Source: Hydrogenovibrio thermophilus
GTDB taxonomy: Bacteria; Pseudomonadota; Gammaproteobacteria; Thiomicrospirales; Thiomicrospiraceae
Direction: 5' to 3'
Assembly (NCBI RefSeq): GCF_004028275.1
Contig: NZ_CP035033.1
Span: forward strand, 1,426,001 to 1,490,000
DNA length: 64,000 nt
Within the stretch, counting starts at the first letter, position 1, and each line of letters opens with the position of its first letter. The position numbers and the translations under genes are program-made. Shown here one piece after another: positions 793-61,883 of this stretch. Below the pieces are notes generated by a model. It saw only the letters and a program-made list of their open reading frames with translations. It searched no databases and was not told where the DNA came from.

Positions 793-1850
793 CGGTTTTG
801 CTCTTCCATGCGTTGGATTTCCTGGGCCACACGGCGGTAGGCTTCCTGCAATACTTCAATCCCGGCCCCCGGTTGGAACGCATTTTCGGAAATGTAACGG
901 CGCCACATACGCCCGCCCGGCAAGCCGGCAAACAGGCCAAGCATATGGCGGCTCACCTGGTTCAGCTTGCCGCCAGACGACAAATGACGTTCGATATAAG
1001 GGTACATGGCTTCCAACACGGCTTCCCGATTCAATGGTTCAGACACATCATCATAATAAAGCCGATCGACTTCCGTCAATAAATACGGTTTTTCATACAC
1101 CGCACGCCCGAGCATGAGGCCGTCCACCGCTGGCAAATCTCCATCGGGTTGTAAAAACGCCAAACCGTCTTGCGGCGACGCGATTCCACCATTGATGGCG
1201 ACCGGAAACTCTGGGAATAATTGTTTAATGCGTCGAACCCAGTCGTATTTCAATGGGGGCACTTCGCGGTTTTCCTTGGGCGACAAACCTTGCAACCAGG
1301 CTTTACGGGCATGGATAATCATGCCGTCGGCACCGGCGTCGTGCACTTGAGTGACAAAGTCCACCAGCGTTTCGAAATCTTCCTGGTCGTCGATACCAAT
1401 CCGAGATTTCACCGTCACCGGAATTTTCGATACGGCGGCTTTCATGGCCGCCACCCCTTCTGCCACCAAACCGGGATGCCCCATCAAGCACGCGCCAATC
1501 ATATTGTTTTGGACCCGGTCGGATGGGCAGCCGACATTAAGATTGATTTCCGAATAGCCCCATTCCTCGCCCAAAGCGGCGCATTTGGCCAAATCCTCCG
1601 GCCCGGAACCCCCTAGTTGCAAGACCACTGGGACATCGTCCTCGGAATGCCCGAGAAACCGCTCCAGGTCATCGCCGTAAATAATCGCGCCGGTGGTGAC
1701 CATTTCCGAATACAGCCAGGCCTGGCGGGTTAGCTGACGATGAAAAACACGACAATGACGGTCGGTCCAGTCCAACATCGGCGCCACAGAGAAGTGTTGG
1801 GCACTGCAGGTCGGTTGACCGGTGGTTTTTTGAAGGGAGTGGTTGAGCAA
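789..1850 (-). CDS. dusA: tRNA-dihydrouridine(20/20a) synthase DusA
   Basis: 353 aa FMN-dependent TIM-barrel enzyme that reduces U20/U20a in the tRNA D-loop with NADPH. FSVAPMLDWTDRHCR opens the barrel; INLNVGCPSDRVQ carries the catalytic Cys; VTVKSRIGID, IIHARKAWLQGLSPKENR and VAINGGI are the flavin and tRNA-contacting motifs typical of DusA rather than DusB/C. The start is TTG at 1850, preceded by AAGGA at good spacing; the next Met would cut off the first beta strand. The stop overlaps the xseA start. One copy of the CCAGGCCTGG palindrome lies inside the gene (1716), encoding Gln-Ala-Trp. Confidence 0.93.
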   Translation of the reverse strand: MLNHSLQKTTGQPTCSAQHFSVAPMLDWTDRHCRVFHRQLTRQAWLYSEMVTTGAIIYGDDLERFLGHSEDDVPVVLQLGGSGPEDLAKCAALGEEWGYSEINLNVGCPSDRVQNNMIGACLMGHPGLVAEGVAAMKAAVSKIPVTVKSRIGIDDQEDFETLVDFVTQVHDAGADGMIIHARKAWLQGLSPKENREVPPLKYDWVRRIKQLFPEFPVAINGGIASPQDGLAFLQPDGDLPAVDGLMLGRAVYEKPYLLTEVDRLYYDDVSEPLNREAVLEAMYPYIERHLSSGGKLNQVSRHMLGLFAGLPGGRMWRRYISENAFQPGAGIEVLQEAYRRVAQEIQRMEEQNR

Positions 1851-1992
1851 AACGCTTCCTTATTGCGAATCAACAAAGAAGCGTATTATAAGTGAAAGCC
1901 GCGTGAATATCAGCGGCATGGTGTTTTTTACAGATGGGCCGGCCTTTCCGTAGATTCGGCCAGGCTTGGTCAATTATTGGCCAACGTGCGGT

Positions 1993-60474: not shown

Positions 60475-60608
60475 GAAATCACTTTAGTTTAGACTTTAAT
60501 TCAGCAAATTGAGAGCTTTGTTTGGAATAAAGCACCCACCGGAATTGGGTAATCAGAATGGAAGCTAATTATACCGTAACCCCAAGGCTTGAGCAATCTT
60601 TGATTGCA

Positions 60609-61883
60609 TCAATCCCGGCCGGAAAAATTCGTATAACCGCCTAGAATCGCCACCGCTTTGCCGTCGATTTCCAAAACCGGCCAACGGTTACGATCCCACG
60701 AGGGGACACCACGCGTTTGAAACCACTTTCTTAATTGTGTTTTCGGGCCAAGCGCTTCAGCTTCCAAATCGGTCATGGCTCGCACCACCCAGTCCGAGAA
60801 TTCCGGTTTCGGCCAGGCCTGGTCGATTTCCAACCGCTTATCGAACGGCTCAGAAAAATACCATTGCGCCGGTTCAAACGCCGACCAAGCGACACGATAA
60901 TCGACCGGCAACGTTTCCGGCAACGCATACAGGGTTTGTCGGTAAACATAAAAGTCGCATTGCGCCTGTTTCAGCTTGGGGTGCGCCTGCGGGTTAGTAT
61001 TTTGCAAACTGGTTTCCAGCCAATCGTATACTTTGGCATTAAGCGTTACCTGCGATGCCTGCGTTTTGGCCCAATAACGCAAGGCGTTTTTCACGCGCGA
61101 CATCCCCAAGCTGACGAGGGGCCCTAACGCCAACTGATAGTGATTCGCGGTACAATTTTGCAAATCCATTTCCGCTAAATCATCCAACAACCCCAAACTT
61201 TCCGACACTCGCTCCGCACTCTGCGACAACGATTGTTCCGGATTCGGCCAGGCCTGGTGGATTTTCGGCAATAACGCATGACGGATGAAATTGCGCTTTA
61301 AAGCCACATCTTGGTTGGATGGGTCTTCCACCCAGTTCAATTGATAATGCGCGGCATAGGCTTTTAAAGCCTGGTACGGCACCTGCAATAGCGGTCGACA
61401 ATGTGAAAGGGGTTTGCGGTCATAAGAAACCGTCTTTTCAAACGGCATGGCCGCCAAACCGGCGACTCCGGCACCGCGCAAAGCGCCTAATAAAAAAGTT
61501 TCTGCCTGATCACGTTGATGATGCGCGGTTAACAAAACCGTTTTATCATCCAGCTGTGCGTAAAGCGCTTCATAGCGCACTTGCCGAGCCACAGACTCCA
61601 CGCCTTGGCGCGCAGCATCCGGTACCGTCACCGAAACGGATTGATATGAAATATGCCGAGCGCTACAAAAAGCCCGGGTAAAGGCTTCCCAATGATCCGC
61701 TTCGGACTGCAATCCATGATGAACATAAACCGCCCGTAAACGCTCGGCCGGAAAACGTTTCGATAGCGCATCCAGCAAAACCGTGGAGTCAAGCCCGCCA
61801 CTGAAGGCCACCAGAAAAGAATATTCGGAGGGATAAAGGTCAGCCAGCGCCGAAACCGCCGACTCAACCTTTGAAAAAGACAT
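60609..61883 (-). CDS. tilS: tRNA(Ile)-lysidine synthase
   Basis: 424 aa. PP-loop FLVAFSGGLDSTVLLDAL, LTAHHQRDQAETFLLGALRG, then the substrate-binding and C-terminal TilS domains (LRKWFQTRGVPSWDRNRWPV). It changes C34 of tRNA-Ile(CAU) to lysidine. Two CCAGGCCTGG copies (60813, 61248) encode Gln-Ala-Trp followed by Pro-x-Pro. Follows accA by 23 nt. Confidence 0.95.
   Translation of the reverse strand: MSFSKVESAVSALADLYPSEYSFLVAFSGGLDSTVLLDALSKRFPAERLRAVYVHHGLQSEADHWEAFTRAFCSARHISYQSVSVTVPDAARQGVESVARQVRYEALYAQLDDKTVLLTAHHQRDQAETFLLGALRGAGVAGLAAMPFEKTVSYDRKPLSHCRPLLQVPYQALKAYAAHYQLNWVEDPSNQDVALKRNFIRHALLPKIHQAWPNPEQSLSQSAERVSESLGLLDDLAEMDLQNCTANHYQLALGPLVSLGMSRVKNALRYWAKTQASQVTLNAKVYDWLETSLQNTNPQAHPKLKQAQCDFYVYRQTLYALPETLPVDYRVAWSAFEPAQWYFSEPFDKRLEIDQAWPKPEFSDWVVRAMTDLEAEALGPKTQLRKWFQTRGVPSWDRNRWPVLEIDGKAVAILGGYTNFSGRD

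Follow-up and report, generated by a model that had tools for sequence, protein, structure and literature searches.

The genome of Hydrogenovibrio thermophilus is pervaded by a palindromic 10-mer, CCAGGCCTGG, of which there are 673 copies in 2.61 Mb (257 per Mb) and none of a reversed-pattern control, and we propose, at a probability of about 0.6, that it forms the core of a DNA-uptake sequence. A preliminary description of the window, by which is meant the whole 64-kb stretch of DNA analysed here, had reported 20 exact copies, and all 20 were found where it had placed them. They compare with Markov expectations of 0.04-0.26 (order 1-4) and 1.8 (order 5), and with 100 dinucleotide shuffles that averaged 0.02 copies and never exceeded 1. 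Given the genomic total and the empty control, two doubts attached to that description, that the genome-wide count might lie near a Markov expectation or that the copies might be confined to the window, have therefore both fallen away. The iteration of the word is confirmed, across the genome; its extent needed amendment, the signature proving longer than the RCCAGGCCTGGY first described.

In the window, where the 51 ORFs of 150 aa or more were taken as genes, nine of the 20 copies lay between ORFs (some of these may fall in shorter genes), rather than the seven counted previously. Copies within ORFs were found at 1716-1725 (ORF 789-1850), 7042-7051 (ORF 6640-7326), 7625-7634 (zwf, 7323-8807), 28602-28611 (ORF 28060-28764), 37624-37633 (ligA, 35918-37936), 39606-39615 (a sugar-kinase-like ORF, 39016-40359, whose best match is below the curated cut-off), 44455-44464 and 44809-44818 (both in ORF 44407-45012), 55855-55864 (ORF 55682-56227), and 60813-60822 and 61248-61257 (both in a tilS-like ORF, 60609-61883). 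Among those between ORFs were the copies at 10399-10408 and, with respect to ORFs of at least 150 aa, at 33142-33151 and 52491-52500; that at 12809-12818 ends 7 bp ahead of the ATG of ORF 12826-14412, and those at 17109-17118 and 17136-17145 form a close pair, the second 27 bp on from the first. The copy at 28022-28031, likewise between ORFs, is the mid-point of a terminator-like 26-bp palindrome, AAAAACCGCCAGGCCTGGCGGTTTTT, and that at 46857-46866 is inside AAAACCGACCAGGCCTGGTCGGTTTT, between a recJ-like ORF and thrC, which are convergent. The remaining copy, at 18188-18197, borders the window's longest stretch free of the word (18198-28021; 42% GC at 24-28 kb), which encodes a phage integrase, an AlbA_2 protein, cation efflux, a ferric reductase, an HTH_38/rve protein (the rve match being weak), an AlgX-like protein and a Y1 transposase (27186-27953), with two probable transposases alongside the integrase.

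The intergenic excess that had been noted in the window was upheld on a larger scale: in 464 kb of this genome, with genes called by a home-made gene caller, 52 of 120 copies were outside genes against 16.6 expected (p 3e-15). The other 68 occupied all three phases (29/9/30) in both orientations, and with the same caller 76 of 133 classified copies were in genes. The word thus occurs in coding and intergenic DNA, and it prefers gene ends to promoters: convergent gaps held 21 copies in 16.3 kb, tandem gaps 28 in 42.9 kb and divergent gaps 5 in 12.7 kb (convergent versus divergent density, p 0.016). In smaller samples from other genomes the trend was the same or the copies were too few. Also in small samples, tandem-gap copies were nearer the upstream stop in this genome and in the G033-like, G004+G005 and G026+G022 sets, but those of G031 and G013 were closer to the downstream start. 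A large genome-wide excess, in coding and intergenic DNA alike, in both orientations and enriched between genes and at their ends, is the pattern looked for in an uptake sequence. With respect to spacing, close pairs were depleted (11 gaps under 1 kb versus 22 expected) and 20 sampled 20-kb stretches were under-dispersed in copy number (P 0.008). Counting against the uptake reading, the overall gap CV was 1.02, and in the first 400 kb, taken as 20 adjoining 20-kb bins, the variance was 3.5 and the mean 5.0.

Alignment of 132 sites of this genome revealed that the word does not stand by itself. At 4-7 bp outward from the 10-mer the A/T fraction was 0.77-0.93; it rose to a second peak of 0.80 at 14 bp and was about 0.5 beyond, and C was the preferred base at -3 (0.61). 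These tracts flank coding copies too in this genome, and they were weak in G026+G022. With its tracts the full signature is a palindrome of roughly 38 bp, best regarded as two opposed half-sites, each an A/T tract followed by CCAGG, with a common central GGCC.

Small samples supported both the conservation of the word and its avoidance of islands. Between this genome and the distant relative G004, 4 of 8 sites were identical versus 1 of 127 flanking 10-mers (p 2.6e-5); against the nearest genome, G009, the difference was not significant (10/12 versus 112/192, p 0.075). Recently acquired DNA was poor in copies, as judged from two islands, chosen as the largest gaps, and from base composition: the islands are the window stretch described above and a 32.9-kb gap of about 40% GC encoding Wadjet JetA, Fic and a Mu-type transposase, and of 126 bins, the window being among the DNA binned, the six of low GC contained one of 132 words (p 0.023).

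A count in relatives, for which the preliminary description had called, found the word abundant in 27 of 60 genomes of the Thiomicrospiraceae, at 106-856 copies with controls of at most 2. In 21 genomes from other families of the class there were 0-35 copies, with controls of up to 13, and nothing to suggest that the word forms a system there. Several members of the family had different, related words (CCGGCCGG, CAACAGGCCGGG, ACCAGGCCTGCT and AACAGGCCTGTT), giving at least six types (about six or seven) in one family, some of them asymmetric. Within the genus, the asymmetric CCAGGYTGGG (Y = C/T) was present in 331, 371 and 403 copies in G003, G010 and G001, respectively, with inverted pairs seen in G001 and G003; G029 had the asymmetric CAACAGGCCGGG (13 in 60 kb), and ACCAGGCCTGCT breaks palindromy likewise. 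On a single-gene ComEC tree of 12 rows, in which 4 of 9 inner branches were well supported, the dialects followed phylogeny: the asymmetric pair G003/G010 formed a clade (100/100), placed by weaker forks (82/91, 93/94) among palindromic members. No such word was seen in 40-100-kb stretches of G012, G018, G079, G024 and G016, nor in the stretches of G071, G061, G062 and G020, and any of these nine may still have one; the stretches of G007, G011 and G017 (4-12 kb; G017 at 0% GC, probably masked) were not long enough for a verdict. Other repeated words were present in G061 and G062, and large repeat arrays headed the word lists of the G055, G008 and G003 stretches. None of the open-licence PMC matches listed reports such a word from this family, and the matches listed for the word string look unrelated by title and start of abstract.

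On the uptake reading, the word would be a self-recognition tag on free DNA, to which a receptor outside the cell, probably one of the minor pilins of a type IV/MSHA-like pilus, would bind ahead of import via ComEC. Because tagged fragments would be preferentially taken up and recombined, each chance mutation towards the word would spread, a molecular drive by which core genes and intergenic DNA would fill while new islands stay empty; a shift in receptor specificity would then be followed by the word genome-wide, giving rise to species dialects. Two opposed half-sites around the central GGCC would allow a fragment to be read in either direction, with G003, G010 and G001 keeping a one-directional version. 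ComEC was present in 49 of 55 genomes but does not discriminate, since it was also present in G012, G018, G016 and G024, where no word was detected, and in the E. coli control. An MSHA-type pilus cluster was found in the word-rich G056. Against the uptake reading, PilO (PF04350), which belongs to the core of classical type IVa pili, was matched in no more than one of the 60 family genomes, and G010 had only two N-methyl pilin matches despite its 371 words. N-methyl pilin matches lie at 637284-640807 and 551289-553370 in the H. thermophilus genome, the second locus possibly belonging to type II secretion, and at 2036090-2037094 in G010. FimT/GspH was considered as the receptor and rejected, all three PF12019 matches in 60 genomes being in genomes without a detected word; the ORFs at the loci in G012 and G018 read as type II secretion operons. 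No ComP_DUS match was above cut-off in 62 genomes, and one was below it. These searches thus yielded no receptor, which also weighs against uptake. As for competence in these genera, no report was among the open-licence PMC matches listed; a paper on H. crunogenus strains (PMC6501319) makes no mention of competence, natural transformation, uptake sequences or type IV pili, and the extract of PMC3757466 merely lists T. crunogena among its species.

To our knowledge, self-recognition uptake words have been described to date from just two families of bacteria. We advance more tentatively, as a proposal that may well not survive in full, that this is a third, independent family, with a palindromic word read either way, a wide radiation of dialects that spans palindromic and one-directional forms, and a receptor carried by a pilus of MSHA type instead of the classical type IVa. 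If so, free-living sulfur-oxidising autotrophs would offer a natural experiment on the evolution of uptake specificity, the receptor could be found by co-variation across the six or seven word types, and the word could tag genetic tools for carbon-fixing bacteria.

Both known systems offer precedents. The Haemophilus USS has a short core beside A/T tracts, including a second tract, and the USS of Pasteurellaceae are asymmetric and unrelated in sequence to this word. The H. thermophilus word likewise adjoins A/T tracts and numbers in the hundreds in a gammaproteobacterium; it differs in that the commonest form is palindromic and of unrelated sequence, and in that the PilO-type part was undetected in 59 of 60 genomes. 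The predicted USS receptor is PpdA/ComN, according to an extract of PMC12616744. The DUS of Neisseriaceae, as presented in extracts of PMC3630211 and PMC7371117, is a very abundant 10-12-mer of core DNA, with species-specific dialects that have a small common core and track phylogeny, inverted pairs at terminators, and a primary word scarce in islands. Abundance in core DNA, dialects, inverted pairs (G001, G003) and island scarcity are shared with DUS as so described; unlike DUS, the word here is different, palindromic in many species and from another bacterial class, ComP_DUS had no match above cut-off, and the uptake role is a prediction from sequence.

A genome-wide palindrome also recalls cyanobacterial HIP1, and the preliminary description, whose comparison of the word with both HIP1 and uptake sequences was sound, had judged HIP1 the closer on the ground that uptake words are asymmetric, and had raised a link to methylation or restriction. 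Extracts of PMC4390886 describe HIP1 and alternate HIPs as frequent palindromes, with other words in some species, and the similar replacement of our palindrome would suit a word that arises and persists through the joint action of a DNA methyltransferase and methyl-directed repair (the Elhai model). The existence of asymmetric dialects, in G029 and in the same-genus carriers of CCAGGYTGGG, leaves the ground given for preferring HIP1 unsupported, since palindromy does not hold throughout; moreover, the tracts reach 14 bp outside the word, and a signature of roughly 38 bp would be long for a methylase target. In a search for three methyltransferase families (PF00145, PF01555 and PF02086), C5-methyltransferase (PF00145) went unmatched in 11 of the 15 CCAGGCCTGG-rich genomes examined for it, and none of the three was matched in G004 (599 copies), G013 (346) and G019 (747) or in the other-dialect G031 and G003. 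Because these five word-bearing genomes matched none of the three families, the methylase reading was rejected, and we regard it as highly improbable; the suggested link to methylation or restriction is likewise unsupported. The HIP1 word itself, GCGATCGC, showed no excess (5 versus 7.9 expected in 538 kb).

A site for a nucleoid- or chromosome-organising protein, such as a condensin loader or a nucleoid occlusion or anchoring protein, recurring about every 4 kb, would account for the long palindromic signature with its tracts, the depletion of close pairs, the two word-free islands and the lack of preference for promoters in this genome. Nevertheless, each change of specificity would require hundreds of sites to change together, and the many words of one family, some of them asymmetric, as well as the members in which none was seen in 40-100 kb, sit poorly with such a role, which we think unlikely. 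Even if uptake is wrong, a signature rewritten genome-wide within one genus requires a drive mechanism.

We give scarcely any credence to two further possibilities, each about equally remote. The density of E. coli Chi is similar to 257 per Mb, as might befit a polar recombination or translocation signal of the Chi or KOPS type; yet the commonest word is palindromic and therefore not polar, and among the forward copies listed, with contigs assumed to start near the origin, the asymmetric dialects showed no replichore skew in G003 (66 of 143 copies within the initial 999,153 bp, p 0.20) or G010 (51 of 169 within the initial 714,934 bp, p 0.67). An RNA-level element, be it the stem of a bidirectional intrinsic terminator or a mobile palindrome of REP type, is brought to mind by the perfect terminator-like palindromes at 28022 and 46857, the favoured convergent gene ends of this genome, the Y1 transposase of the window and flanks whose first four positions pair somewhat more than independence would give. 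REP elements are extragenic, however, and most classified copies were in genes, in every phase and orientation; pairing beyond the consensus was absent or slight from the fifth flank position outward, and of 15 sites altered in an orthologue, 10 had changed with no gap, the other 5 showing a gap.

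Every one of the 20 copies of the perfect 10-bp palindrome CCAGGCCTGG that the preliminary description had placed in the window was confirmed, against 0.02 in dinucleotide shuffles and expectations of 0.04-0.26 copies under Markov models of order 1-4 and 1.8 under order 5. The excess is real and genome-wide, as the entire 2,612,894-base contig holds 673 copies of the word and none of the control, the same pattern read backwards. A survey of 60 genomes of the family found the word 106-856 times in 27, 15-37 times in 4 and 0-8 times in 29, with at most 2 copies of the control in each, while in 21 genomes from other families of the class it occurred 0-35 times, with controls reaching 13. 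Single-mismatch versions are rare in the genome of Hydrogenovibrio thermophilus itself (0-7 copies each, beside 120 perfect copies), the exceptions being at the outermost base, where GCAGGCCTGG is found 24 times (1.5 expected) and TCAGGCCTGG 9 times (1.7 expected).

Screening of stretches from relatives for over-represented words without prior assumption, followed by word counts in 33 relatives at 16-160 kb apiece, revealed that several family genomes poor in the palindrome carry a related word, or dialect, in its place. These include CCGGCCGG in G031 (35 in 80 kb, 0.6 expected; surroundings TTACCGGCCGGTAA), CAACAGGCCGGG in G029 (13 in 60 kb, 0.0 expected; surroundings AAACTCAACAGGCCGGGT), AACAGGCCTGTT in G076 (5 in 40 kb) and the 8-mer CAGGCCTG in G021 (26 in 60 kb, 2.0 expected), and in G015 and G030 ACCAGGCCTGCT is mixed with CCAGGCCTGG (8 and 5 copies of the former, respectively, each in 40 kb). 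The dialect of G003, G010 and G001 is asymmetric, AAAATCTGCCAGGCTGGGG or AAAATCT(G/A)CCAGGTTGGG, sharing its left half (an A-tract, then CCAGG) with the palindromic form and differing in the right; CCAGGYTGGG occurs 331, 371 and 403 times in these whole genomes, respectively, and at most 15 times in each of the other 57. In a 12-row ComEC tree, G003 and G010 formed a clade (100/100), as did G029 and G021 (100/99), and the asymmetric pair lay amid palindromic relatives on weaker forks (82/91 and 93/94), with two forks open. The stretches examined from nine genomes (G012, G018, G079, G071, G061, G062, G016, G024 and G020) showed no such word. A second dispersed element, GGGTAAGGCGAG, was seen directly upstream of some asymmetric words (G001, stretch L051; G003, stretch L145).

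At 132 sites of the H. thermophilus genome, the A/T fraction outside the 10-mer was 0.82, 0.93, 0.90 and 0.77 at 4-7 bp, fell to 0.38 at 9 bp, rose to 0.80 at 14 bp, and was about 0.5 thereafter. Intergenic copies had 80-82% A at positions -7, -6 and -5 (57 sites), and coding copies carried the tracts too (55, 57 and 53%; 76 sites); A or T tracts were also found in G004 and G005, G013, G031 and the G033-like genomes, and were weak in G026 and G022. The two flanks of a site paired more often than independence predicts chiefly over the first four positions (e.g., 0.47 vs. 0.35 and 0.46 vs. 0.32), with little or no excess beyond, a pattern more in keeping with a signature in double-stranded DNA than with a hairpin in RNA. 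Some intergenic copies, such as those at window positions 28022 and 46857, are also perfect terminator-like palindromes.

Within 464 kb of the same genome, 52 of 120 copies lay outside called genes (16.6 expected), and the 68 inside were in both orientations and in phases 29/9/30. For the 54 of 57 intergenic copies flanked by a called gene on each side, there were 21 in 16.3 kb of convergent, 28 in 42.9 kb of tandem and 5 in 12.7 kb of divergent gaps (p 0.016 for convergent against divergent). A regulator acting at promoters would show the reverse pattern. Smaller samples gave 4 in 2.7, 21 in 16.4 and 7 in 7.9 kb, respectively, for G033-like genomes and 6 in 5.3, 11 in 12.9 and 2 in 5.1 kb for G004 and G005; those from the remaining genomes held too few copies for judgement. 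At 12809-12826 in the window, one copy adjoins the probable ribosome-binding site of the ORF at 12826-14412.

Close pairs were depleted: among the first 100 listed copies, gaps below 1 kb numbered 11 (22 expected), and counts in 20 sampled 20-kb stretches had a variance of 1.9 around a mean of 5.0 (P 0.008). The overall gap CV is nevertheless 1.02, partly because of a word-free, low-GC (~40%) island of 32.9 kb (genome positions 322120-354961; L165-L166), in which a scan of 10 ORFs found Wadjet JetA, an SMC-like ATPase, a Fic protein, an NdpA-like protein and a Mu-type transposase. The 9.8-kb word-free gap in the window holds a mobile or acquired stretch (18207-27953) encoding a phage integrase, an AlbA_2 protein, cation efflux, a ferric reductase, an AlgX-like protein, an HTH_38 protein that weakly matches rve, and a Y1 (IS200-like) transposase. 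With gaps not hand-picked and the window included, the 6 low-GC bins of 126 held 1 of 132 words (p 0.023).

Sites were conserved beyond their surroundings in G004, at ~72% identity (4 of 8 identical vs. 1 of 127 flanking 10-mers, p 2.6e-5), and in G005, G008 and strain WB1 pooled (2 of 5 vs. 3 of 77, p 0.028); in the near relative G009 the difference was not significant (10 of 12 vs. 112 of 192, p 0.075). Of 15 changed sites in alignments, 10 differed without gaps and 5 with one.

Taken together, dialects differing at hundreds of sites within a single genus, cores flanked by tracts, placement at gene ends and a lack of copies in islands match the predictions of a drive by biased uptake, and we infer that the word is probably a tag for DNA uptake. 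The same four features are similar to those of the DNA uptake sequences (DUS) of Neisseriaceae, as described in two papers (PMC3630211, PMC7371117). A chromosome-organizing protein binding the sites would account for their spacing and footprint, but it is not easily squared with hundreds of sites rewritten several times within one family. The involvement of methylation, suggested by the two abutting CCWGG sites, was not supported: PF00145 had no match in 11 of the 15 palindrome-rich genomes searched (G002 gave fragments only), PF01555 and PF02086 exceeded the cut-off in 20 and 9 of 60 genomes, respectively, and G004, G013, G019, G031 and G003 had no match to any of these three families, to which the search was confined.

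As for the machinery that uptake of tagged DNA would need, ComEC was present in 49 of 55 genomes, with or without the word, and in the E. coli control, and thus permits uptake without discriminating. PilO was matched in just 1 of 60 family genomes, a result that argues against a pilus of the classical type IVa kind, though divergent PilO-like proteins might escape the model. N-methyl pilin matches numbered 8 in H. thermophilus, 2 in G010 and 9 in the word-less G012, and no dedicated receptor came out of these searches. G056, with 397 copies of the word, has a cluster (L127:161-10896) of an AAA ATPase, a secretin, a TPR protein, an assembly ATPase (40% identity to E. coli HofB across 392 aa) and other proteins, one of them HofC-like, all tentatively named, in part from tblastn matches; its gene arrangement is that of MSHA pili, with no pilins within the stretch.

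Other repeats were noticed in passing, namely 38 copies of one containing GTGGATTGAAAC in G055 (L125-L126), a probable CRISPR array, and long repeated-DNA arrays, perhaps encoding giant repeat proteins, in G003 (L055-L057; top words 27-81 copies) and G008 (L151-L152; 18-20 copies).
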